NCBI RefSeq assembly: GCF_002895485.1
Contig: NZ_AZRK01000001.1
Coordinates: 124,001 to 188,000 of the forward strand
DNA: 64,000 nucleotides
Source: Petrotoga sp. 9PWA.NaAc.5.4
Lineage (GTDB): Bacteria > Thermotogota > Thermotogae > Petrotogales > Petrotogaceae
Direction of reading: 5' to 3'
Shown here piece by piece: positions 1 to 63,538 of this stretch. The position numbers and the translations under genes were made by a program. Within the stretch, counting starts at the first letter, position 1; each line of letters opens with the position of its first letter. Under the pieces are notes generated by a model. That model was not told the origin of the DNA, did not search any database, and was given only the letters and a program-made list of their open reading frames with translations.

Positions 1-113
1 TAATTCTTTTAACTTTTTCGGTACTTGTAGCAAAGAAAGGGAGCTGGACTCCGCCCTGAACCCATTTTAAATTCAAAAACTTATTTTCTGAAAATTTTCA
101 TTTCTAAAATAAT
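1..113 (-). repeat. Interspersed MITE-like repeat, copy 1 (cut by window edge)
   Basis: This is the left two-thirds of the about 200-bp repeat family described in the findings, in reverse orientation. Visible parts are the degenerate hairpin region near 15-35 (GGTAC..TTTGC), the GC-rich patch with GGAGCTGGACTCC, the CCCATTTTAAATTC segment, and the terminal TCATTTCTAAAAT at about 99-111. The promoter-proximal end lies outside the window, so any gene it serves would be on the minus strand to the left. Confidence 0.75.
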
Positions 114-383
114 AAAATAAAATTAAATCCCCTTTGATAGAAAATCTGTTGCTTTGAAAAACTATTGTAAAAATAATCAAAGTATATTATACCAAAAATT
201 ACTGACATTTATTAATTTAAAAATTTTTACAAACGTTAAGTATCAAAAAATCACAAAATATATATTTTCAAAATTTTTATTAAAAAATAAAATTAGTTTA
301 CTTGTAACCTTATATAAAAATTCGCTCTATATAATATTTTGTTGAAAAAATCGATAATATCAAAAATCTGGAGGCTTACAAAT
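114..383. other. AT-rich spacer before the ZIP gene
   Basis: About 270 bases of very AT-rich DNA lie between repeat copy 1 and the ZIP transporter. A 63-codon open frame at 154-345 has low-complexity composition and no ribosome binding site, so I do not call it a gene. I see no RNA gene or strong hairpin. The promoter of the ZIP gene is presumably here, but no convincing -35/-10 pair stands out. Confidence 0.5.
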
Positions 384-1170: not shown

Positions 1171-1884
1171 TTAAACATAAAATATATTGTTCTTACCTTC
1201 TTTTTTAGCTTTGTACAAATTTTCATCTGCTTTTAAAAAAAGTGAATATATTTCATTGCTATTTCCAAAACTTATCCCTACAGACAACGTACAACCTGTT
1301 TTTTCAAAAAAAACGTTCTTTAAACGACCTAATACTTTTATTGCATTTTCTTTTGAAATATTCGATAGGATTATTATAAATTCATCTCCACCATAACGAA
1401 AAATTTTATCGCTTTTTCTAAAGTTATTAATCATAATTTGTGAAAGTTCTTTTAATATCTTGTCTCCATTTTCATGACCAAACCTATCGTTTATCTCTTT
1501 GAAATTATCTATATCAATAAATGCAAAAGCTATTTTCATGTTTTTTAAATATGTCAAAGATGATATATATTTTTCATAACTCCTTCTGTTTCCGACTTTT
1601 GTGAGGGTATCCAGTTCAGCTTCTTCCTTTAAAATATTCATAAATACTTTATTCTGCCAAATTAACGCACTTTGTTTGGCAAAATAATCTAAGATCTCTA
1701 ATTGTACATCTGTTATTGGCTTGGCATTGTATCTATTATCGCACAGATAGAAAGCAAGGTTTCCTTCACTTATATTCATCGGAGAAAAAGCTATCTCTCC
1801 CCTTAAATCAAAAGAGTCTACTATATATTGATCTAAGTTGACTTGTTGGTAGCTTAATCGTTTTATTAAAACTGATAGCCGATT
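1171..1884 (-). pseudogene. Diguanylate cyclase, GGDEF half of a frameshifted GAF-GGDEF gene
   Basis: This is the C-terminal part of a GAF-GGDEF protein that would make cyclic di-GMP. An intact GGDEF motif is preceded five residues earlier by the RxxD inhibitory site (RKSD), so the catalytic domain looks functional. The first in-frame ATG is at 1779, but the frame stays open and protein-like up to 1884. The extra residues (KRLSYQQVNLDQYIVDSF and following) complete the GAF domain begun by the upstream frame. The two halves overlap at 1808-1884 and differ by one base, so a single extra nucleotide in the AT-rich stretch explains the split. If corrected, the protein would be about 488 residues. 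Confidence 0.85.
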
Positions 1885-2638
1885 TTAAAAGTTTATTTTT
1901 CATAAATTTTTCTTTGATTATTTTGATATCCTTGATTTTCTCCTCTAAGTTCGAAAAGAACATTTTCCCAATTTTGTAATTATTTAAATAAGGAATTATA
2001 TTGCTTTCTAAAGTTTCAAAAGACTCATAAATTCGGTGCGCTTCTACTTCATCAGCCGGGCCAATCGCCCTTTGTACCTTAAAAAATTCTTCATCTTCTC
2101 TAAACAATATAACTCTGTTAAAATTACCAGCAAATCCTCCTGTTATGCCAACCATTACTGCATATATCATTTCATCTATAGATGTTTTTGGTTTATATAC
2201 TTTTTCTAAGATTATCTTAGAAGTTCTAAATACACTATCCATATAGGCAGAATCTAAAAGAATGTTTGTTAATACAAGACCTATTAAAGAATCTGCTTTT
2301 TTTAAAATTTTGTAAATGAAAAAAGACTCTTCTTTTAGTAATGTGTCGTAATCAACATATACTCCTTTTATTTTTTTAGGGAATCTGATTTCAATACTCT
2401 GATCCGCAATCTCTTCAACTTCCTTAATATCTTTAATTTCAAATATTTCGAAAGAATTACAAATTTTTATAAATTTATACAACGTTTCCGGAACTAACTC
2501 TGGTTTTCTATGTATTGATATGTTAACTTCAAAATTAAATATAAAGTCTTTTGTAAAATTTTCAATCAAAAGAGTCACGCCAGGATTAATATATGACCTT
2601 TTAATATTTCTTTCGTATTTTTTAGGAATTGAAATCAT
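1808..2638 (-). pseudogene. GAF-domain half of the frameshifted diguanylate cyclase
   Basis: This is the N-terminal half of the same broken gene. Residues 1 to about 130 match no domain I recognise. They are followed by the start of a GAF domain with the characteristic pattern GITGGFAGNFNRVILF ... IGPADEVEAHRIYESF. The frame then ends in a non-homologous tail at a TGA at 1808. The start at ATG 2638 has GGAGATG upstream; an earlier in-frame codon at 2668 would overlap the previous gene by 25 bases. It directly follows the korA-like gene with a 5-base gap, so the two are probably cotranscribed. If the frameshift is real, the cyclase is probably inactive or unregulated. Confidence 0.8.
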
Positions 2639-2643
2639 ATTAA

Positions 2644-3801
2644 TCACATCTCCGTTATTTGCACCCACATTTTCATAACTATATCTAAAATCTCCTCCGG
2701 CGTTATTAATTCTCCTGTAGTTTTAGTTAAAGATTCGACATGCCTATTCATTTTATTTAATTTAGACATCTCTCTGGCATATTGACCTGTATTCATTTCT
2801 GGAACAATAATAATTTGTGCATCCCTAAAAATCATTTTAAGTCTTGATGTTGGCATAGGCCAAATTGTGATAGGCTTAAAAAGTCCCACGGGTATTTTAT
2901 CCGATCTTGCTTGTTTAACTGCCCTTAAAGCACTCCTAGCAACACTACCAAAAGCAACGATAACAATTTGTGCATCTTGCAACATATATTCATTATAAAT
3001 AGATATCTCCTGTGTAGAAAGTCGAATTTTAGAATCAAGATGTTCTATTACCTTTGCAATAATATTAGGATCCCTTATAGGAAACCCGCTTTCATCGTGT
3101 GTCAAACCTGACACATGAAACCGCGTTTTCCCCATTTCTACTAAGGGATTTACTGAGTATTGGTCATTCAATTCAAAAGGTAAGAACAATTCCTCTTCTC
3201 CAATCTCACTTTCTTTTAATCTCTCAACAACTTTAGGATTCTCTTTTTCATAGTCTATATAAACATTTTCTCTCATGTGAGCTAAGGTTTCATCCATAGC
3301 TAAAATTACTGGGGTTCTATAAATTTCTGCGTAATTGAAAGCTGTGATGGTATAAATGTAAACTTCTTCTACAGTAGAAGGATACAGTGCGATTATTTGA
3401 TGATCTCCGTGAGTACCCCATCTAATTTGCATTATATCTCCTTGAGAAGGCGAAGTTGGGAGACCTGTACTTGGTCCACCTCTCATGACATCTACAAAAA
3501 CACAAGGAATTTCAGTCATTATAGCATATCCTAAAGCTTCCTGCATTAAAGAAAAACCTGGACCACTTGTAGCTGTCATTGATTTAACTCCAGCAAGTGA
3601 TGCACCTATTATTGCAGCAGCACTTCCTAATTCATCTTCCATTTGGATAAAAGTACCTCCAACTTTAGGAAGTTCTCTTGCCATATATTCTGCAATCTCT
3701 GTGGAAGGAGTTATTGGATAACCAGCAAAAAAACGACACCCCGCCTTTATAGCAGCCATTCCTACTGCTTCATTACCCTGCAAAAAAAGCATTTTACCCA
3801 T
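2644..3801 (-). CDS. korA: 2-oxoacid:ferredoxin oxidoreductase, alpha subunit (KorA/VorA-like)
   Basis: This is the alpha subunit of a thiamine-diphosphate enzyme that oxidatively decarboxylates a 2-oxoacid to an acyl-CoA and reduces ferredoxin. The N-terminal pyrimidine-binding domain shows GYPITPSTEIAEYMA, followed by QMEDELGSAAAIIGAS and TSGPGFSLM, all typical of the family. A C-terminal transketolase-like domain contains FGSVARSA and FKPITIWPMP. The length (385 residues) fits KorA without a fused gamma domain. ATG 3801 is preferred over GTG 3810 because GAGGT lies 7-8 bases upstream of it. It overlaps the ferredoxin gene by 8 bases. No beta or gamma subunit follows; the next gene is the cyclase. 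Confidence 0.88.
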   Translation of the reverse strand: MGKMLFLQGNEAVGMAAIKAGCRFFAGYPITPSTEIAEYMARELPKVGGTFIQMEDELGSAAAIIGASLAGVKSMTATSGPGFSLMQEALGYAIMTEIPCVFVDVMRGGPSTGLPTSPSQGDIMQIRWGTHGDHQIIALYPSTVEEVYIYTITAFNYAEIYRTPVILAMDETLAHMRENVYIDYEKENPKVVERLKESEIGEEELFLPFELNDQYSVNPLVEMGKTRFHVSGLTHDESGFPIRDPNIIAKVIEHLDSKIRLSTQEISIYNEYMLQDAQIVIVAFGSVARSALRAVKQARSDKIPVGLFKPITIWPMPTSRLKMIFRDAQIIIVPEMNTGQYAREMSKLNKMNRHVESLTKTTGELITPEEILDIVMKMWVQITEM

Positions 3802-4046: not shown

Positions 4047-4228
4047 TACCCACTTTAGAAATTATGAAACTCCGATTCTATAAATGTTTTGAATCTTAGT
4101 TTTTTCAAAATTACCTCCTCAACTCTAATCCTTGCAAAATATGAATTTCTTTAACTTTTTCGCTACGAGTAGCTAAGGAGAGGGGAAAGAGCTCCGTCCT
4201 GAACCCGTTATAAATTCAAAGTACTATT
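4047..4228 (-). repeat. Interspersed MITE-like repeat, copy 2
   Basis: Reverse-oriented copy. The gene-proximal terminus CCCACTTTAGAAAT is at about 4048-4062 and faces korD, whose start codon is about 28 bases away. The central hairpin is degenerate (CGCTAC / GTAGCT around 4161-4176), and the GC-rich patch reads GAGCTCCGTCCTGAACCC. The far end runs into the stop codon of oadB, so its distal terminus is missing. Confidence 0.8.
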
Positions 4229-5365
4229 TTAAAGAATGCTTAAAAATATTCCAGCTACTATTGCTGAACCAATTACACCTGCAACATTTGGTCCCATCGC
4301 ATGCATTAATATAAAATTTCCCGGGTCGCTATCTTGGGCAATCTGTTGAGCTACTCTTGCTGAATCAGGTACCGCAGAAACACCAGCCGCACCAATTAAA
4401 GGATTTATTTTTTCTTTAGAAAATATATTCATTGTTTTTGCGAAGATTATTCCACTTGCAAGCGAAGCGACAAAAGCGACTGCTCCTAATAAAATGATCT
4501 TTAAAGTACTCCAAGATAAAAATATATCAGCAGTTGCAGAAGCTCCTACAGATAACATCAACAATATAGTAACAGTATCAGAAATAAATCTTGAGGCAGC
4601 TTCTGCTAATCTTGCGGTTAAACCAGACTCTTTTAACAAATTCCCCAACATTAACATTCCTACCAAAGGTAACGCTTGTGGAACTATCAAAGAAACTAAT
4701 ATGGTTGTTAATAAAGGAAAAATAATTCTTTCACGTTTACTTACATTTCTCATTCTTTTCATTCTAATCTTTCTTTCTCTTTTAGTAGTTAATAGCTTGG
4801 ATATAAAAGGCTGTAAAATGGGGATAAAAGCAATATATGAATAAGCAGCAACCGCAATAACAGAAAGCAATTCCGGAGAAAACCTTGAAGCTAAATAGAT
4901 GGAAGTAGGCCCGTCTGCTCCACCTATAATTGAAATAGCAGCTGCTGCACGAAGATCAAATCCCATAAGATTAGCGATAATAAAGGTAACAAATATTCCT
5001 ACTTGCGCAGCTCCACCTAAGATAAGAAGCTTAGGATCAGCTATTAGATATGAAAAATCTGTTAAAGCACCTATCCCTAAGAAGATCAGAGGAGGATAAA
5101 TACCAAGTTCCATTCCTTGCTTTATATACCATAATAATCCACCAGGTTGACCATTTTGTGGAGCTAAAAGTATTCCTGTCATCTCGGGAGGCAAATTAGC
5201 CATTATCATACCAAATCCTAATGGAATCAATAAAAGTGGTTCAGCATGCTTAGCTATAGCTATATAAATAATTCCTAATCCCAAGACGATCATGAATATT
5301 TGAGACCACATAATATTTGCAAATCCAGAATTAGTAAAAAAAGAAAGTAAATCAGATAATTGCAT
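4229..5365 (-). CDS. oadB: Sodium-translocating decarboxylase beta subunit (OadB/GcdB/MmdB family)
   Basis: This is the membrane subunit that couples decarboxylation of carboxybiotin to sodium export. The 378 residues carry about ten hydrophobic segments and the family hallmark GGADGPT (near residues 148-154), followed by ASRFSPELLSVIAVAAYSY. A second conserved region near the C-terminus reads GAAGVSAVPDSARVAQ. ATG 5365 has AGGAGG upstream. No alpha (carboxyltransferase), gamma or biotin carrier gene is in the window, so it is an orphan here and must pair with subunits encoded elsewhere. Whether it serves oxaloacetate, methylmalonyl-CoA or glutaconyl-CoA cannot be told. A degenerate repeat terminus sits about 25 bases upstream of the start. 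Confidence 0.92.
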   Translation of the reverse strand: MQLSDLLSFFTNSGFANIMWSQIFMIVLGLGIIYIAIAKHAEPLLLIPLGFGMIMANLPPEMTGILLAPQNGQPGGLLWYIKQGMELGIYPPLIFLGIGALTDFSYLIADPKLLILGGAAQVGIFVTFIIANLMGFDLRAAAAISIIGGADGPTSIYLASRFSPELLSVIAVAAYSYIAFIPILQPFISKLLTTKRERKIRMKRMRNVSKRERIIFPLLTTILVSLIVPQALPLVGMLMLGNLLKESGLTARLAEAASRFISDTVTILLMLSVGASATADIFLSWSTLKIILLGAVAFVASLASGIIFAKTMNIFSKEKINPLIGAAGVSAVPDSARVAQQIAQDSDPGNFILMHAMGPNVAGVIGSAIVAGIFLSIL

Positions 5366-5389: not shown

Positions 5390-5597
5390 TACTAAATTTG
5401 GAAATTCTAAAATTTGCATTTTATATATGTTTTAGCATTTAATTTTTCCAAAAATACTTTTTTGTCTGGAAACACCCATATAAGTCGCCGCTTCTATTGA
5501 TTCGCTCCATTTAACGAAAAAGAAGAAAAAGGGCTCTACCCTAGACCCACTTTACATTTAAAAGCTTGTTTTTAGAAAATTATCATTTCTAAGATGT
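5390..5597 (-). repeat. Interspersed MITE-like repeat, copy 3 (degenerate)
   Basis: Diverged reverse copy. The gene-proximal end at about 5390-5412 (ACTAAATTTGGAAATTCT) faces oadB. The middle retains GGGCTCTACCCTAGACCC and CACTTTACATTTAAAAGC. The distal end TCATTTCTAAGAT lies near 5584-5596. Loss of the hairpin sequence suggests an old insertion. Confidence 0.65.
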
Positions 5598-5734
5598 TTA
5601 ATAATTTTTAGTAAATATAATTTGTTACCTTGAAGAGCCTCATACAATATTTGACTATTATTTTTATTATATCATATACTTTAAATCCTTAATCGTAAAA
5701 ATACGCTTTTCTTTCAATTTTTCAATTTTTTTTG

Positions 5735-10162: not shown

Positions 10163-10194
10163 AAACTTGGTTTTTAGAGTTTCTAAAGCAAGTA
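10163..10194 (+). repeat. Terminal fragment of the MITE-like repeat, before cheA
   Basis: The segment AAAACTTGGTTTTTAGAG followed by TTTCTAAAGCAAGTA matches the gene-proximal end of the repeat family, including the AAAACTTA(A/G)GTTTT palindrome. It begins 3 bases after the cinA stop and ends 26 bases before the cheA start codon, the same spacing as in the full copies. No other part of the repeat is present. Confidence 0.6.
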
Positions 10195-10220: not shown

Positions 10221-12224
10221 ATGCCAAACATGAATGTATACTTAAACGTTTTTTTGGAAGAGTCCAAAGAAAATATACAAGAATTGAATGAACTTTTGCT
10301 GAAATTAGAAAAAAATAGAGATGATGCTGAAATATTAAACGACATTTTTAGAATTGTTCACACTTTAAAAGGTATGGCTGGAACGATGGAGTTTGATGTT
10401 CTAGCAAAATTTTCACACAAATTGGAAAATATTTTAGATATGTTGAGAAATAAAAAAATTGAGTTGACTGATAGTCTATTGGATATTCTTTTTAAAGCTG
10501 CTGATGCTTTAGATGAAAGCATTCATGATATAGAGAATGGAGGAAAAGGTGAAGTTGAAAGTTTAAATAATTTGGAAAATAAAATGGATAATTATTTAGA
10601 ACTATCTAAATCAGAAAACTTGAAATCTATTTATAATGAGTTTTTAAATAAAGAAAATTCTGATAAAGAAACTTATAATTTTTTTGTTAAATTAGATCTT
10701 GAAACAAAAAGAGTCCTTAAAAATGTTTTTCAAAAAGCTAAAGAAAACAATTTAAATTTTTTCTTTTTGAAAGTGGTTTTAGAAGAAGATGTACAATTAA
10801 AGCAAGCACGAGCTTATACAATATACCATAAATTAGAAGAAATGGGATGTGAAATCGTCTATACTTTTCCAAGCACTGAAGATATAGAAAAAGAAAGATT
10901 TGATAAAGAATTAATATTCGGTATTATTACTTCAAAAAACAGTGGAGAAATTGCAGAAACTATTCGTCATATAAGTGAAGTTGATTCGGTTATGATTGAA
11001 GAATTTTCAACTGAGTCTGTGGATAATAAGTTAGAAGATAACGAAATCCAGCAAGAAGAAAAGAACGAAAAAGAATTTAAACTTTCCAAATCAATTAGAG
11101 TAGATATAAACAAATTAGATGAATTGATGAATCTCATGGCAGAATTGGTTATTGCTAGAAGTAGAATAGTTGAAACTTTAAATAAATATAATCTTAAAGA
11201 AGTAGATGAAAGTTTGTCTCAACTTTCAAGAATAACCTTAGATTTGCAAAATGTAGTTATGAAAGTAAGAATGGTTCCTGTAGCATTTATTTTTAACAGA
11301 TTTCCAAGACTTGTAAGAGATATTGCCAAAGATTTAGGAAAAAAAGTCAATTTTATAATAAAAGGAGAAGATACAGAATTAGACAGAACAGTTGCCGATG
11401 AAATAGGAGATCCACTCATTCATTTGCTTAGAAATGCTTTAGATCACGGAATTGAAGGTCCTCATGAAAGAATTTCTAAAGGTAAACCCGAAGTTGGAAC
11501 CATTATTTTATCAGCGAGACATGAGGGAAATGGTGTAATAATAGAAGTAGAAGATGATGGAAAAGGACTAAACAAAGATGAAATTTTACGGAAAGCTATT
11601 GAAAAAGGTATAGTGAATGCTGCAGAAGCATCAAAATATAGCGAAGAAGATATTTACAATTTTATTTTTTTGCCAGGTTTTTCTACTAAAACCTATTCTA
11701 CAGAAATTTCAGGAAGAGGCGTAGGAATGGATGTAGTTAAGTACACTGTTGAAAATTTGAAAGGCAGTATCTCTTTAGAAACAAAAAAAGATAAAGGAAC
11801 TAAAATAACTATAAGATTACCTCTAACTTTAGCAATAATAGAAGCTTTACTTATAACAGTAAATGACGCTGTTTATGCGATTCCTATTGCTAATATAGAC
11901 ACTACCCAAAGATTAGATGATGGAGAATTAAAGAGCGTGCAAGATAGAGAAGTTTTCTTACTTAGAGGCGAAGTTATCCCAGTCGTAAGGTTAAGAGATC
12001 TGTTTGGATATTCAAGAAATCAACCTAATTTAAAAGAAAACATTGTAATAATAAGAATAGGAAACAAAAAATATGGAGTAATTGTTGATAAACTACTCGG
12101 TCAAGATGATATTGTTATAAAATCCTTAGGAACATTATTAAGTGATGTAAAAGAATTTAGTGGAGGTGCTATTTTAGGAGATGGAAGAATAGCATTAATA
12201 TTAGATGTATCTTCATTAATGTAA
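10221..12224 (+). CDS. cheA: Chemotaxis histidine kinase CheA
   Basis: This kinase autophosphorylates in response to chemoreceptors and passes phosphate to CheY. In 667 residues the order is: HPt domain with phospho-accepting His47 (IVHTLKG), a CheY-binding P2 region (about 150-270), dimerisation helices, an ATPase domain with the N box [12 protein letters not shown] and G boxes ([14 protein letters not shown]), and a C-terminal CheW-like domain (about 530-667). ATG 10221 has TAGGAGGGG upstream; the frame is open 18 codons further but without a good binding site. It is the first gene of the large motility operon. Confidence 0.96.
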
Positions 12225-23749: not shown

Positions 23750-23944
23750 TAGAAACTTTAGAAATGACAATTTTTAAAAAAATAAATGTTTGATTTTACA
23801 ATGGATTCATTAAGGCGCCCTCTTTCTCCTCTTGGTACAAGGCAAGTACCTAAGAGATTAAAGAAATAGAGAAAACCTAAAAATTAGAATCGTAGATATA
23901 TTTTATAAAAAATTAAACGCTGAAATATTGATAAAATCCGAGTA
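23750..23944 (+). repeat. Interspersed MITE-like repeat, copy 4
   Basis: Forward copy. The left terminus TAGAAACTTTAGAAATGA begins near 23750. The central stem is enlarged (CTCTTGGTAC and GTACCTAAGAG). The right part is shortened and lacks ATTTCTAAAGT but ends in GAGTA at 23944, 26 bases before the next start codon. Flanks CATATTAATAT and TACATTAATAG match at 8 of 11 positions, a possible decayed target duplication. Confidence 0.7.
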
Positions 23945-23970
23945 TACATTAATAGACAAGGGGTTAAAAG

Positions 23971-24471
23971 ATGATTGGATATTTTTCTCTTTATAAATCT
24001 GAAAATGAAACTTATGCAGGTGGCTTTCTGATACTTAACGAAAAAGGTATACCAGTTTCTTTTAAGTATACAGATCCAGTTAAACCTACGAGAATCCAAA
24101 AAATAATTTATGGTAACAATCTGAAAAATTATTTTGCTTTTGAAATTTTAACTAATAAAGACCTTTTTTCACCACATGATGTGGAGATTATTTTCACTGA
24201 TGACAAAGATATTTTAAATTATGCTGACATAGAAAAAACTATTATTTATTTAATAGAAGTTAATAGCGATGTAGGGTTCGGCGTTAAAGAAAAAGAAGGA
24301 GTAATTCCTATAGACGAAAATAAAAGTTTAAAATTTTATTCTACAAAAATAGTTGATTCAACACTTTTAAAAAAAATAAGGTCCTACGCAGAAGTTTTTG
24401 ACCTTTTAGAACCCTTTAGGCGCTTAAAAGAGGCGTTGATCTATATATGTTCTTCGGAAGAAAAAGAATAA
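23971..24471 (+). CDS. Hypothetical protein
   Basis: I do not recognise this 166-residue soluble protein. It begins MIGYFSLYKSENETYAGGFL with a compact alternating beta pattern and a conserved-looking YTDPVKPTRIQKIIYG segment, then a mixed region and a helical C-terminus. No signal peptide or membrane segment is visible. ATG 23971 has AAGGGG upstream. It overlaps the next gene by 25 bases, and that gene runs straight into mfd, so the three probably form one transcript. Its regular codon use argues that it is real. Confidence 0.7.
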   Translation: MIGYFSLYKSENETYAGGFLILNEKGIPVSFKYTDPVKPTRIQKIIYGNNLKNYFAFEILTNKDLFSPHDVEIIFTDDKDILNYADIEKTIIYLIEVNSDVGFGVKEKEGVIPIDENKSLKFYSTKIVDSTLLKKIRSYAEVFDLLEPFRRLKEALIYICSSEEKE

Positions 24472-30225: not shown

Positions 30226-30401
30226 ATTAGTCGTTTTAAAAAGGTCGGGACACAGCCCTTTCTCATCTCCTTTGCTACACTTAGTGAAAAAGTTAAAGAA
30301 ACTCATAGTTATTAAGCGTTAGAGTGATGGAAGTATTTTTGAAAAAATTTAAAGCTAAAAATTTGGTAAAACTTAAGTTTTGAAATTTTTAAAGAGAGTA
30401 A
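30226..30401 (+). repeat. MITE-like repeat, copy 5 (first of a tandem trio)
   Basis: Forward copy lacking a clear left terminus. The middle reads GGTCGGGACACAGCCC; the hairpin stem has shifted (CAC-TTA-GTG). The right end has the AAAACTTAAGTTTT palindrome followed by GAAATTTTTAAAGAGAGTA at 30382-30401. Confidence 0.75.
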
Positions 30402-30410
30402 TAAATAATA

Positions 30411-30600
30411 AATACTTTAGAAATGAGAATTTTCTAAAAATAAGCATTTGAATTTATAGCGGGTCCAGGGCGGAGCCCTCTCCCTCTTCTTTCGGTACAA
30501 GTACCGAAAAAGTTAAAAAAATTCAGAATTAGTGAGATTTAAAGTTATGTAGGCATTTTATAAAAAATCAGATCTAAAACATATATATATATAAGCGGAT
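30411..30600 (+). repeat. MITE-like repeat, copy 6 (second of a tandem trio)
   Basis: Forward copy starting ACTTTAGAAATGAG at 30414. Its first 118 bases are nearly identical (one substitution) to copy 7, 203 bases downstream. It contains the perfect 9-bp hairpin TTTCGGTAC-AA-GTACCGAAA and the AGGGC-GGA-GCCCT stem. The right terminus is missing, replaced by an AT dinucleotide run near 30580. Confidence 0.85.
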
Positions 30601-30616
30601 AAAAATATAAATAGGG

Positions 30617-30819
30617 ACTTTAGAAATGAGAATTTTCTAAAAATAAGCATTTGAATTTATAGCGGGTCCAGGGCGGAGCCCTCTCCCTCTTCCTTCGGTA
30701 CAAGTACCGAAAAAGTTAAAAAAATTCAGAATTAGTAAAATTTAAAGTTATATATATATTTTATAAAAAATTTAACAATAAAATATATACAACGATTCTT
30801 AGAATTTCTAAAGTAAGTA
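30617..30819 (+). repeat. MITE-like repeat, copy 7 (third of a tandem trio)
   Basis: Best-preserved tandem copy, about 203 bp, with left terminus GGGACTTTAGAAATGA and right terminus ATTTCTAAAGTAAGTA (30804-30819). The central hairpin is intact. The right end lies 24 bases upstream of the ABC-2 permease start. The stretch 30173-30843 holds nothing besides these three repeats. Confidence 0.9.
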
Positions 30820-32860: not shown

Positions 32861-33490
32861 ATGAAGTACATTTCGATAGAAAACTCTAAAGAAATTACGA
32901 TCATCATAGAAAAATCGCGATTTATAGCGAATGCCTTACAAATAAAAAATACATTTCAAGCCCATAATTTTATAAAAGATATCAATCAAAAATATAAAAA
33001 CGCTACTCATAATTGTTGGGCTTATAGAGTTTATGAAAATGAGAGAGAACTCTTTAATTATTCTGATAACAAAGAACCTTCAGGAACTGCTGGTAGGCGA
33101 ATTTTAGGAGTTATTGAAAAATATAACTTGTACAATGTTGCAATTGTAGTAACAAGATACTTTGGAGGAATAAAATTAGGTATTAGAGGCTTAATAGATG
33201 CATACTCACAAGCGGCTGAAGAAGTAATTAAAAATTCTCAATTAGTTACATATGAACCCTTTCTAATTTATGAGATATATTGCGATTACAGTAATTTTTC
33301 GCATATACAAAGAATGTTCAGCAAAGATCCCAATGTTTCAATTATAGAGCAGAAATTTGGAGAAATAGTCTTTTTAAAACTTAAAATAGCTGAAGAATAT
33401 GAAAATAATATTTTGAATATTTTAAAAAATAGAATTTTAAAATTAGATTTTATAGAAAAGGCTGATTATCCGATTCAACAATCTGTTTAA
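32861..33490 (+). CDS. YigZ/IMPACT family protein
   Basis: This 209-residue protein has an N-terminal UPF0029/Impact domain (KSRFIANALQI, HNCWAYRVYENERELFNYSDNKEPSGTAGRRIL, VTRYFGGIKLGIRGLIDAY) and a C-terminal ferredoxin-fold domain (DUF1949-like). The family is conserved but its bacterial function is not firmly settled; links to translation have been proposed. It is 24 bases after the SAM hydrolase gene. It is followed by repeat copy 8. Confidence 0.92.
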   Translation: MKYISIENSKEITIIIEKSRFIANALQIKNTFQAHNFIKDINQKYKNATHNCWAYRVYENERELFNYSDNKEPSGTAGRRILGVIEKYNLYNVAIVVTRYFGGIKLGIRGLIDAYSQAAEEVIKNSQLVTYEPFLIYEIYCDYSNFSHIQRMFSKDPNVSIIEQKFGEIVFLKLKIAEEYENNILNILKNRILKLDFIEKADYPIQQSV

Positions 33491-33498
33491 AGTTTCAT

Positions 33499-33715
33499 AG
33501 AAACTTCATAAATGATAATTTTAAAAAATGAACATTTGATTTACAATGGGTTCAGAGCGAAGTTCCATCCCCATTCTGAGAAGCCAAATTCGCCGAAGAT
33601 GAAGGCAGGGTGGGGTATATCTTTCGTTACGTGTAACGAAGAAGTTAAAGAATTCATAGTTAACAAAAAATTAGAGTATTGATAAAATTTAAGTTTTAAA
33701 TTTCTAAAGTGAGTA
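33499..33715 (+). repeat. MITE-like repeat, copy 8, with an 11-bp target duplication
   Basis: Forward copy flanked by exact direct repeats TAAAGTTTCAT at 33488-33498 and 33716-33726. The right terminus TTTCTAAAGTGAGTA ends at 33715, 27 bases before the dnaX start. The hairpin is CGTTAC-GT-GTAACG, a compensatory variant of CGGTAC-AA-GTACCG. It also carries an extra 40-50 bp GC-richer insert with pairing ends (CCCCATTCT / AGGGTGGGG). Confidence 0.88.
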
Positions 33716-33742
33716 TAAAGTTTCATGTTAGGAGGATGATTA

Positions 33743-40356: not shown

Positions 40357-40538
40357 CTTCGCTTTAGAAATTCTAAATATCAAATTTTATAAAAATTTTA
40401 TAGTTTAAATATTTATAAAATATCTACACAATTCTAATTTTGAGATATTCTCTATTTCTTTGAATATGGGAGAGGACTCTGCCCTGATCCCTTTACAAAT
40501 TTAAAAGATTATTTTTGGAGAATTCTTATTTTTAAAGT
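40357..40538 (-). repeat. MITE-like repeat, copy 9
   Basis: Reverse copy filling the gap between the XRE-cupin gene and speD. Gene-proximal terminus CGCTTTAGAAATTC is at about 40360; distal terminus TTATTTTTAAAGTCC is at 40526-40540, only a few bases from the regulator stop codon. The GC-rich patch reads GGACTCTGCCCTGATCCC; the central hairpin is lost. Confidence 0.75.
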
Positions 40539-40545
40539 CCCTATC

Positions 40546-45395: not shown

Positions 45396-45432
45396 TTATA
45401 ACATTCAAGTTTTGAAATTTTTAAAGACAGTA
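45396..45432 (+). repeat. Terminal fragment of the MITE-like repeat, before the IMPase gene
   Basis: CATTCAAGTTTTGAAATTTTT followed by AAAGACAGTA matches the gene-proximal end of the repeat (compare copy 5). It ends 26 bases before the TTG start at 45459. No left half is present. Confidence 0.6.
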
Positions 45433-55406: not shown

Positions 55407-55435
55407 TACCCACTTTAAAAATTTTAAAATTCATA
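55407..55435 (-). repeat. Terminal fragment of the MITE-like repeat, before the BMP gene
   Basis: TACCCACTTTAAAAATTTT at 55407 onward is the gene-proximal end of the repeat in reverse orientation, 27 bases from the BMP start codon. The remaining gap to 55517 contains no other recognisable repeat part. Confidence 0.55.
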
Positions 55436-58221: not shown

Positions 58222-58419
58222 TTAAAATTTTAGAATTGGTAACTTTTCAAAAAATAAACATGTGAATTTAAAATGAAACTGGGGTAGAGTTCTTCTTACT
58301 TTTGCATAATGTGCCGAAAAGCTAAAGAAATTAAGAATCAAAAGTGGGAAGATATTTTTGAAAAAATTCAAAACTAAAATATTTACAAAACTTAAGTTTT
58401 AGAATTTCCAAAATAAGTA
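58222..58419 (+). repeat. MITE-like repeat, copy 10
   Basis: Diverged forward copy. Left part TTTTAGAATTGGTAAC, middle with ACTGGGGTAGAGTTC, and right end with the palindrome AAAACTTAAGTTTT and AGAATTTCCAAAATAAGTA ending at 58419. Copy 11 follows directly. Outside these two copies the 58003-58668 gap holds only the promoter noted above. Confidence 0.75.
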
Positions 58420-58431
58420 AATACTATTATA

Positions 58432-58640
58432 GGTACTTTAGAAATGAGAGTTTTCAGAAAATAATCTTTTGAATTTAAACGGGTCCAGGGCGGAGCTCTC
58501 CCCCCTTCCTTCGGTACAAGTACCAAAAAAGTTAAAAGAATTAAGAATTAGCGAAGATTAGAGCTATGGAGGTATTTTTGAAAAAAATTTAAAACTAAAA
58601 GATTGGTAAAACTTAGGTTTTGGAATTTCTAAAGTAGGTA
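58432..58640 (+). repeat. MITE-like repeat, copy 11, flanked by 14-bp direct repeats
   Basis: Well-preserved forward copy. Left terminus GGTACTTTAGAAATGA, hairpin GGTAC-AA-GTACC, palindrome-like AAAACTTAGGTTTT, right terminus AATTTCTAAAGTAGGTA. TAAATACTATTATA occurs on both sides (58418-58431 and 58639-58652). The right end is 28 bases from the SDR start codon. Confidence 0.9.
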
Positions 58641-58668
58641 AATACTATTATATGAGGAGGGAATAGAC

Positions 58669-59424
58669 ATGGCGGGTAGATTAGAAGGAAAAGTTGCAAT
58701 AGTTACTGGTGCCGCAAGAGGAATGGGAAAAGCGGAGGCTGAGCTATTTGCAAAAGAAGGAGCAAAGGTAGTAGTTGCAGATATTTTAGAAGAAGAAGCA
58801 AAACAAGTTGCCGAAAATATTAAAAAAAATGGGAAAGAGGCAATAGCTGTAAAACTTGATGTATCGAAAGCAGAAGAATGGAAAAAACTTGTTGATATGG
58901 TAGTTGAAAAATGGGGAAAAGTAGATGTTCTTGTAAACAACGCAGGAATATTAAGTATGGCTGGTGTAGAACAACTGACAGAAGAAGAATGGGATAAAGT
59001 TATGAATATAAATGCAAAAAGTCAATTTTTAGGCATCAAATATGTGCTACCGGCAATGAAAAAAGCAGGGAAAGGCTCAATCATAAATATTTCTTCAATA
59101 TATGGAATAATTGGTTCTGGTGCAGCAGCAGCTTATCATGCTTCAAAAGGAGCTTCAAGACTTCTAACTAAAACTGTAGCAGCTGAGCTCGCTAAATATA
59201 ATATAAGAGTTAATTCCATTCATCCCGGTGTTATAAGAACTCCTATGACAGATGATCTTTTGAAAGACCCAAATAATGCTAAAGGTTTGCTAGGAACCAC
59301 TGTTTTGGGTAGGCCAGCAGAGGCTATAGAAGTTGCAAATGGCGCTTTGTTCTTAGCTTCAGATGAATCTTCATTTATGACTGGTTCTGAATTAGTTATC
59401 GATGGTGGATACACTGCATTATAA
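58669..59424 (+). CDS. Short-chain dehydrogenase/reductase (FabG/glucose dehydrogenase-like)
   Basis: Classical SDR of 251 residues: cofactor motif TGAARGMGKAE, NNAGIL, catalytic Ser (NISS) with YHASK, and the C-terminal GSELVIDGGYTAL. It could be a 3-oxoacyl-ACP reductase or a sugar/alcohol dehydrogenase. No fatty-acid genes surround it, which favours the latter. AGGAGGGAAT precedes ATG 58669, and a terminator follows, so it is monocistronic. Confidence 0.92.
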   Translation: MAGRLEGKVAIVTGAARGMGKAEAELFAKEGAKVVVADILEEEAKQVAENIKKNGKEAIAVKLDVSKAEEWKKLVDMVVEKWGKVDVLVNNAGILSMAGVEQLTEEEWDKVMNINAKSQFLGIKYVLPAMKKAGKGSIINISSIYGIIGSGAAAAYHASKGASRLLTKTVAAELAKYNIRVNSIHPGVIRTPMTDDLLKDPNNAKGLLGTTVLGRPAEAIEVANGALFLASDESSFMTGSELVIDGGYTAL

Positions 59425-59643: not shown

Positions 59644-59857
59644 TACTCACTTTAAAAATTCCAAAATCCTTATTATATGTATATTTTAGCGTTGATTCTT
59701 TTACAAAATACCTCTCCGCTTGTAGTCCTTAGTAATTCCTAATTTCTTTACCTTCTTCGCTACTTGTATCCAAGGAAGGAAGAGAGGGTTGTGACATGAA
59801 CCCATTTTGAATTCAAATGCTTATTTTTTGAAAATTATCATTTCTAAAGTACCTAAA
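59644..59857 (-). repeat. MITE-like repeat, copy 12 (reverse), with 10-bp direct repeats
   Basis: Reverse copy between TACTCACTTTAAAAATT (59644) and TCATTTCTAAAGTACC (about 59838-59853). TACAAAATAC occurs at both edges (59637-59646 and 59858-59867). This is the one copy whose gene-proximal end does not face a start codon. The sequence 59468-59636 shows nothing else. Confidence 0.85.
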
Positions 59858-59861
59858 TACA

Positions 59862-59981
59862 AAATACCGAATACGTTAAAGAAATTTATAGTTAGTAAGT
59901 ATTAGAATTGCGTAGGTGTATTTGAAAAAATCCAAACTAAAACATTTATAAATATTGATTTTGTAATTTCTAAAGTGAGTA
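59862..59981 (+). repeat. MITE-like repeat, copy 13 (right half only)
   Basis: Forward half-copy starting in the hairpin region (TACCGAATACGTTAAAG) and ending AATTTCTAAAGTGAGTA at 59981, 27 bases before the hydrolase start. With copy 12 it forms an inverted pair, so copy 12 may have inserted into it. Confidence 0.8.
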
Positions 59982-63291: not shown

Positions 63292-63350
63292 AAAGTACCC
63301 AATAAATTCAAGAAATTCATGGTTAGTGAGTATAAAAATTTAATATGGAC
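63292..63350 (+). repeat. Partial MITE-like repeat upstream of ackA
   Basis: AAAGTACCCAATAAATTC, then AAGAAATTCATGGTTAGTGAG, matches the segment just right of the central hairpin in other copies. Neither terminus is present. It is probably the remainder of an older insertion displaced by copy 14. Confidence 0.5.
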
Positions 63351-63353
63351 TTT

Positions 63354-63512
63354 AGAAATAGAGCTTTTTTAAAAATAAGCGTTTGGATTTGAGACAGATT
63401 CATGACGAAGCTTTTTCTTCAATTTGATCAGAGTAACGATCAAGTTAAAAAAATAGATAATTAGTAAGTATTAGAACTGTCGAATTATTTTTTTAGAATT
63501 TCTAAAATGAGT
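63354..63512 (+). repeat. MITE-like repeat, copy 14, before ackA
   Basis: Forward copy with left terminus TATGGACTTTAGAAATAG and right terminus AGAATTTCTAAAATGAGTA ending at 63512, 26 bases before the ackA start. The central hairpin keeps its position but has a different stem (TTGATC / GATCAA). About 40 bp shorter than full copies. Confidence 0.8.
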
Positions 63513-63538
63513 ATTAAAATCACATTAGGAGGTTATAT

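Follow-up and report, generated by a model that had tools for sequence, protein, structure and literature searches.

The window, a stretch of 64,000 nucleotides considered at its full length, belongs to a Thermotogota genome of 2.22 Mb in 45 contigs. The dnaX of the window has its closest matches in Thermotogota, Petrotoga and Marinitoga. It harbours at least fourteen full or partial copies of a repeat of about 210 bp (208-position model), plus three sites reduced to little beyond the right end of the repeat. The left end, TANNNACTTTAGAAAT, and the right end, ATTTCTAAAGTNNNTA, are inverted repeats of each other. Gene identities in the window were assigned with Pfam, except for korD and cheA, which are labels taken from an earlier, sequence-only reading. 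The copies and their associated sites, in window positions, are as follows.

1-115, minus strand: copy clipped by the window edge
4047-4235, minus strand: element missing part of its left end, oriented toward the start codon side of the korD-labelled gene, 14 nt from terminus to AGGAGG
5390-5600, minus strand: element facing oadB (OAD_beta), 12 nt from terminus to AGGAGG, gap 4 nt
10172-10194, plus strand: right end only, before the cheA-labelled gene, 13 nt from terminus to AGGAGG
23750-23950, plus strand: degenerate element before the gene at 23971
30235-30400, plus strand: older copy with left end lost, first of a tandem three
30409-30600, plus strand: copy with degenerate right end, second of the tandem three
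30612-30819, plus strand: copy nearest the ABC-2 permease gene
33488-33497 and 33716-33725: duplication TAAAGTTTCA of the dnaX element, followed by the gap TGTT and AGGAGG at 33730-33735
33498-33715, plus strand: full element before dnaX
40357-40543, minus strand: element before speD, terminus and duplication deleted, abutting the Shine-Dalgarno sequence
45410-45432, plus strand: right-end remnant before the inositol monophosphatase gene
55407-55429, minus strand: right end only, before the Bmp substrate-binding gene, 14 nt from terminus to AGGAGG
58228-58419, plus strand: older copy, pushed upstream by the element at 58430-58640
58420-58429, plus strand: left copy of the target-site duplication AATACTATTA at the SDR locus
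58430-58640, plus strand: full element of 211 bp before the SDR gene, left end TAGGTACTTTAGAAATGA, right end TTTTGGAATTTCTAAAGTAGGTA
58641-58650, plus strand: right-hand copy of the duplication AATACTATTA, with the 4-nt gap TATG after it
58655-58660, plus strand: AGGAGG, Shine-Dalgarno sequence of the SDR gene and putative target anchor
59644-59855, minus strand: exceptional copy without a gene start, facing purine-rich AAAGGGAAG at the usual spacing, with a near-perfect flank duplication
59863-59981, plus strand: element with left part lost, before the alpha/beta hydrolase gene, 14 nt from terminus to Shine-Dalgarno sequence
63345-63513, plus strand: element before ackA, 13 nt from terminus to AGGAGG

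The sequence-only reading had described the right end as lying at a near-constant distance before the start codons of unrelated genes. This holds for nine named genes of the window, with distances of 24 nt (oadB, ABC permease), 25-26 nt (ackA), 26 nt (the cheA-labelled gene, inositol monophosphatase), 27 nt (dnaX, Bmp gene, hydrolase) and 28 nt (SDR). The speD copy is a shortened exception, its terminus directly against the Shine-Dalgarno (SD) sequence. The right end also points toward the gene throughout the window, as had been noticed, with the copy at 59644-59855 (minus) as single exception; no gene start lies in front of this copy, yet AAAGGGAAG is found at the usual distance.

The genome-wide spacing check that the same reading had called for gave a narrow distribution. 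The right-terminus pattern has 815 matches in the whole genome, against 108 for the reversed control. The 156 right termini in 834 kb comprise 94 at 22-33 nt upstream of a start codon, 33 with the left end of another element directly after them, and 23 that face an AGGAGG-like sequence, mostly before short or uncalled genes; in the remaining 6, both a clear SD-like sequence and an adjoining element are absent. The 33 termini followed by another left end are older copies displaced upstream by a newer one. In the stretches around matches, motif-bearing genes have the motif 23-33 nt before the start, with a peak at 27 nt. Since 623 kb of the 834 kb are biased to element-rich regions, the unbiased rate is that of the 211 kb on contigs chosen regardless of the repeat, where the repeat is present at 16 out of 152 genes (10.5%), in every case at 25-32 nt. 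When up to one mismatch is allowed, the right end is found 445 times in the host genome, where it is abundant, 79 times in genome G003 and 39 times in G009, and counts stay close to background in most of the family's other genera (relatives G001-G020). In G003 (complete, 2,053,097 bases), 15 out of 16 ends with an SD-like sequence sit 13-16 nt before it, a spacing that mostly holds in the other relatives too.

The anchor of this spacing is the SD sequence AGGAGG, and neither the start codon nor a -10 box. The variance of the distance from terminus to SD is 2.04, that from SD to start codon 2.34, and that from terminus to start codon 4.54, with r = 0.04 between the first two (n = 92). The two distances thus add as independent terms, which makes the SD the anchor and the distance to the start codon secondary; the start codon as anchor is ruled out by this partition. 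The terminus-to-SD distance has its mode at 14 nt. A perfect AGGAGG was present in 79 out of 116 element genes (68%) and in 47 out of 283 other genes with an intergenic leader (17%; Fisher p = 7e-23). Later strengthening of the SD by selection could widen this difference, and the enrichment is therefore counted as supporting evidence only.

The elements are true insertions with target-site duplications of 9-12 bp. When the left boundary was set before TANNNAC and a match of at least 7 out of 8 was counted, 35 of the 69 usable copies retained a duplication (shuffled left flanks: mean 5.9, maximum 13). In 28 of the 35, precisely 4 nt separate the downstream edge of the duplication from AGGAGG (shuffles: mean 1.4, maximum 6); seven are off the 4-nt gap, and about six chance matches are expected overall. 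The length of the duplication is variable, with a mode of 10 bp, and much of the scatter of the right end arises because of this variation. In terms of DDE chemistry, this may be read as a left end joined at a fixed point and a right end joined at a slightly variable one. The terminal TA had suggested an IS630-type TA target, which is excluded by the duplications of 9-12 bp.

Comparison with relatives gave an empty site. For a copy in G008, the genomes G014, G018 and G002 align across the joined flanks with no insertion, and the same gene bears independent element right ends at the usual distance in G012, G016 and G003. Of 13 ortholog pairs between the host genome and its relatives, 11 have the element in just one of the two genomes. 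An ancient promoter motif is ruled out by the empty site together with this absence at orthologs. At one ortholog of 90% identity, the array and leader are nearly identical in the host genome (L126:9243-9844) and in G003 (L140, near 10420-10449, minus strand). This resemblance, unlike the other loci, may stem from a recent horizontal exchange or from an old copy that was kept.

The small element has the properties of a miniature inverted-repeat transposable element (MITE): it is shorter than 500 bp with terminal inverted repeats, target-site duplications are kept in 35 of the 69 usable copies, and an autonomous element with the same ends is present in the genome. Some family members measure about 88 bp or are arrayed. 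The mini-elements of about 88 bp consist of the left 65 bp fused directly to the right 23 bp (L127:14894-14981; also L109, L115 and L134), which suggests that these two parts may be enough for mobility. A short stem, TTCGGTAC-AA-GTACCGAA, lies inside the element (window 30490-30520, 58520-58535, 33620-33640, and 4160-4185 on the minus strand). Compensatory changes between copies (TTAGCTAC/GTAGCGAA, TTCGTTAC/GTAACGAA) suggest that it is kept as a DNA or RNA hairpin.

Pairing of ends alone was too noisy for the detection of long elements, whereas a search by transposase family succeeded. The DDE_Tnp_1 search detected one transposase gene, within a 1.6-kb insertion sequence at about 50420-52050 of contig C2 of the host genome, and this is the only intact copy there. 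The insertion sequence is bounded by both repeat ends and flanked by a duplication of 10 bp, ATATATATAA; 14 nt separate its right end from the AGGAGG of a downstream gene that looks like apt. The transposase has 417 aa and matches DUF772 (37.5 bits, cut-off 23.1) and DDE_Tnp_1 (34.3 bits, cut-off 23) in Pfam. Its best-scoring NCBIfam model is that of IS1182 (NF033551), at 55.9 bits against a cut-off of 270; the protein is IS1182-related and, being below the family-model cut-off, is not filed as a member. A plasmid search with the transposase gave no match, nor did a comparison of it with solved structures, and the AlphaFold model (pLDDT 43) was set aside.

The SD of the transposase gene itself can pair with an upstream anti-SD in a long stem, for example ACCTCCTTACGAT with ATCGTAAGGAGGT (L170, with the gene at 1501-2751, minus strand; also L171 and L179). 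The stem has predicted energies of -24.6 to -29.1 kcal/mol, is retained in homologs at 78% and 37% identity, and has its anti-SD within the promoter spacer. By this arrangement the SD would be masked in read-through transcripts and exposed in transcripts from the gene's own promoter.

Homologs of the transposase are present in Thermotogota genera that carry the small element, and in some others. The homolog of G008, a second Petrotoga-like genus (78% identity), has a 12-bp duplication, TTACCTTCAAAA, followed by the gap ATAA and AGGAGG. Those of G019 and G017, from a further genus (43%), have an 11-bp duplication, TATACCAATAA, the gap AATA and AGGAGG. Homolog ends also face SD sequences in G003, G002, G016, G018 and G077. 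Four distant clostridial homologs were examined; their duplications, read in L213, L214 and L215, measure 9 bp and are followed by 4-5 nt. In L213, whose ends were read from the flanks, the duplication ATTACATCC and the 4-nt gap AATA precede AAGGGG inside a putative istB-like coding sequence, an identity that comes from the translated flanks only. L214 has GAAATACAA, 5 nt and CGGAGG, and L215 has TTATAATAA, 4-5 nt and AATGGGG. The end of L216, likewise read from the flanks, faces AAAGG before a gene. The homologs of both phyla land with the same orientation and spacing.

The same rule is followed within the repeat family itself. Two copies are nested at the internal GGAGG (AAGGAGG) of another copy, one at L116:9723 (duplication AAGGATTAAA, gap GTTA, AGGAGG) and one at L135:2760 (duplication AGGATTAGA, gap GCTA, AGGAGG). 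Copies stacked at one SD share the duplication (L112, L114, L131; window 58228-58640), and each newer copy sits between the older one and the SD. Tandem arrays of up to eight units also occur (L122:8204-9283, L125:9910-10641, L128:12616-13386, L137:18020-18698). In these, every unit except the last is truncated at the same place, at about position 134 of the model (also 115-117, 129 and 142). The junction at 134 would be consistent with nesting at the internal GGAGG, if the right halves were later lost or the composite itself transposed.

Insertion, duplications, spacing, orientation, empty site and autonomous partner are each documented at the level of sequence, and the repeats are very probably a MITE family mobilised in trans by the DDE transposase of the 1.6-kb insertion sequence, which targets SD-like DNA. 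We infer that the transposase itself reads duplex AGGAGG and that the same protein would move the small elements. It would recognise the SD-like purine sequence in DNA and attach the left end at a constant offset of 4 nt on the upstream side of this sequence, the right end being joined another 9-12 nt upstream, which would leave the 9-12 bp duplication. The right end would then always come about 14 nt before AGGAGG. With AGGAGG and the start codon about 7-8 nt apart, this would place the right end about 27 nt ahead of the start, in fixed orientation. Each new copy would recreate the target, so that copies accumulate upstream of the same SD, and the internal GGAGG of the element would also serve as a target. 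The site just upstream of the ribosome-binding site, where SD and start codon stay intact, is presumably a tolerated niche, with about 10% of genes colonised. Insertions within genes are lost, so the apparent precision must owe something to selection against landing elsewhere.

The SD might instead be recognised as RNA or through the ribosome, with pairing between nucleic acids, or the translation machinery, selecting the target (nascent mRNA, the anti-SD of 16S rRNA, an R-loop or a guide encoded by the element). Such a route would be a new way of guiding a DDE transposon. The target motif is indeed the complement of the anti-SD, nearly all insertions lie in transcribed leaders, and even the nested GGAGG is transcribed when its element is within a leader. 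We consider this route improbable, as an RNA-guided component is not apparent, one protein-coding gene is all that the insertion sequence contains, and the copy inside the istB-like gene and the one facing AAAGGGAAG have targets that are not ribosome-binding sites. An anti-SD encoded by the element was rejected as guide, its internal CCTCC not being conserved among copies.

A further explanation is a portable promoter or leader, inserted without targeting, of which only the copies well spaced from the SD express well and survive selection. Consistent with this, the element has TTGAAA about 62 nt upstream of the right end, one subtype has TATATA/TATAAT about 35 nt upstream, and right ends persist after loss of the remainder (15 out of 117). 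However, the same spacing occurs without a gene start in the nested copies, the AAAGGGAAG copy and the clostridial istB-like copy, the exact 4-nt edge of the duplication carries no expression meaning, and full-length insertion sequences with unrelated interiors follow the rule too; this explanation is therefore given little credence. A candidate promoter formed by these motifs is possible as a side effect of SD-directed insertion, and would explain the tolerance. RNA folding gave a mean unpaired fraction of the SD of 0.34 with the whole element and 0.44 with its last 45 nt; with such a slight drop, no strong translational effect is predicted.

The sequence-only reading had also suggested insertion into the initiation region, directed at -10 hexamers that it saw in the duplicated flanks. 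It was right about the kind of target and wrong about the motif, which is the SD-like AGGAGG. The supposed -10-like flanks are the 9-12 bp target-site duplications, with no shared sequence beyond a weak T bias. Insertion aimed at -10 hexamers or open transcription complexes would agree with the A/T-rich duplications and with a TATAAT score of 4.57 against 4.08 of 6 (perfect in 4 out of 28, versus 3 out of 158 controls). But AGGAGG is the sole invariant of the reconstructed targets, which have no conserved hexamer and only a weak A-then-T bias in the duplication. In element-free genes TATAAT peaks 40-60 nt before the start, away from the insertion point, and the nested and intragenic targets are not promoters. 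The -10 hexamer was rejected as anchor, and aimed insertion of this sort is very unlikely. The tandem arrays with identical junctions at many loci, and the leader nearly identical in the host genome and G003, could also come from recombination or gene conversion that carried the repeats from leader to leader, or from descent of an ancient shared regulatory leader. The empty site and the target duplications already contradict this explanation, as do the inverted termini, the same-ended transposase and the absence at orthologs, and it is scarcely credible.

For a transposon directed to ribosome-binding sites, a low-GC genome would provide hundreds of places to land without damage to the SD or start codon, and about one gene in ten would have its 5' leader rewritten. 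The system offers a clear, testable example of transposition anchored to a motif (fixed offset of 4 nt, single orientation), carried out by one transposase and shared by two phyla. It also calls for caution, as conserved upstream motifs in such genomes may be transposon ends and not promoters. MITEs and insertion sequences are known kinds of element; the SD target appears to be new, and no description of SD-directed insertion was found in the open-access literature searched.

Transposons homing to a short functional sequence are rare. Tn7 keeps a single orientation and a constant distance to the sequence it recognises, landing outside the recognised gene; it needs dedicated target proteins and one gene end (glmS). 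The SD element differs in having one transposase and hundreds of sites (see also PMC10132070). Among prokaryotic MITEs found near genes, Correia elements, BOX and RUP are similarly short and non-coding, bounded by inverted termini and flanked by target duplications; those of the Correia type are located immediately upstream of genes and can contain promoters (PMC10969869, PMC3049150). BOX forms arrays, and BOX and RUP are not specific for gene starts and are enriched between convergent genes (PMC3049150). In contrast to the SD element, no fixed distance to an SD is reported for these three.

The transposase resembles those of the IS1182 family (IS1182, IS1272) in its DUF772 and DDE_Tnp_1 domains, its length (about 420-445 aa in that family) and the element of about 1.6 kb. 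Variable duplication length is a further likeness, the direct repeats of IS1182 varying from 2 to 60 bp (PMC7335449). IS1272 targets palindromes or inverted repeats, which are replaced without duplication (PMC5678879), whereas here the target is AGGAGG in place of an IS1272-type palindrome, and 9-12 bp are duplicated. The nearest mechanism is that of ISAjo2/IS1202, the "dif site hunters", whose insertions lie 5 bp from XerC sites and share a single orientation (PMC10132070). As in the SD element, one orientation and a fixed distance to a short functional sequence are combined with a choice of site apparently made by the transposase only. ISAjo2/IS1202 differ in their target (the XerC site of dif), a duplication of about 5 bp, an unrelated TnsB-like transposase, and few sites per genome as against about 10% of genes. 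The SD element thus works like ISAjo2/IS1202 and stands outside that group by its AGGAGG target, its 9-12 bp duplications and its DUF772/DDE_Tnp_1 transposase.
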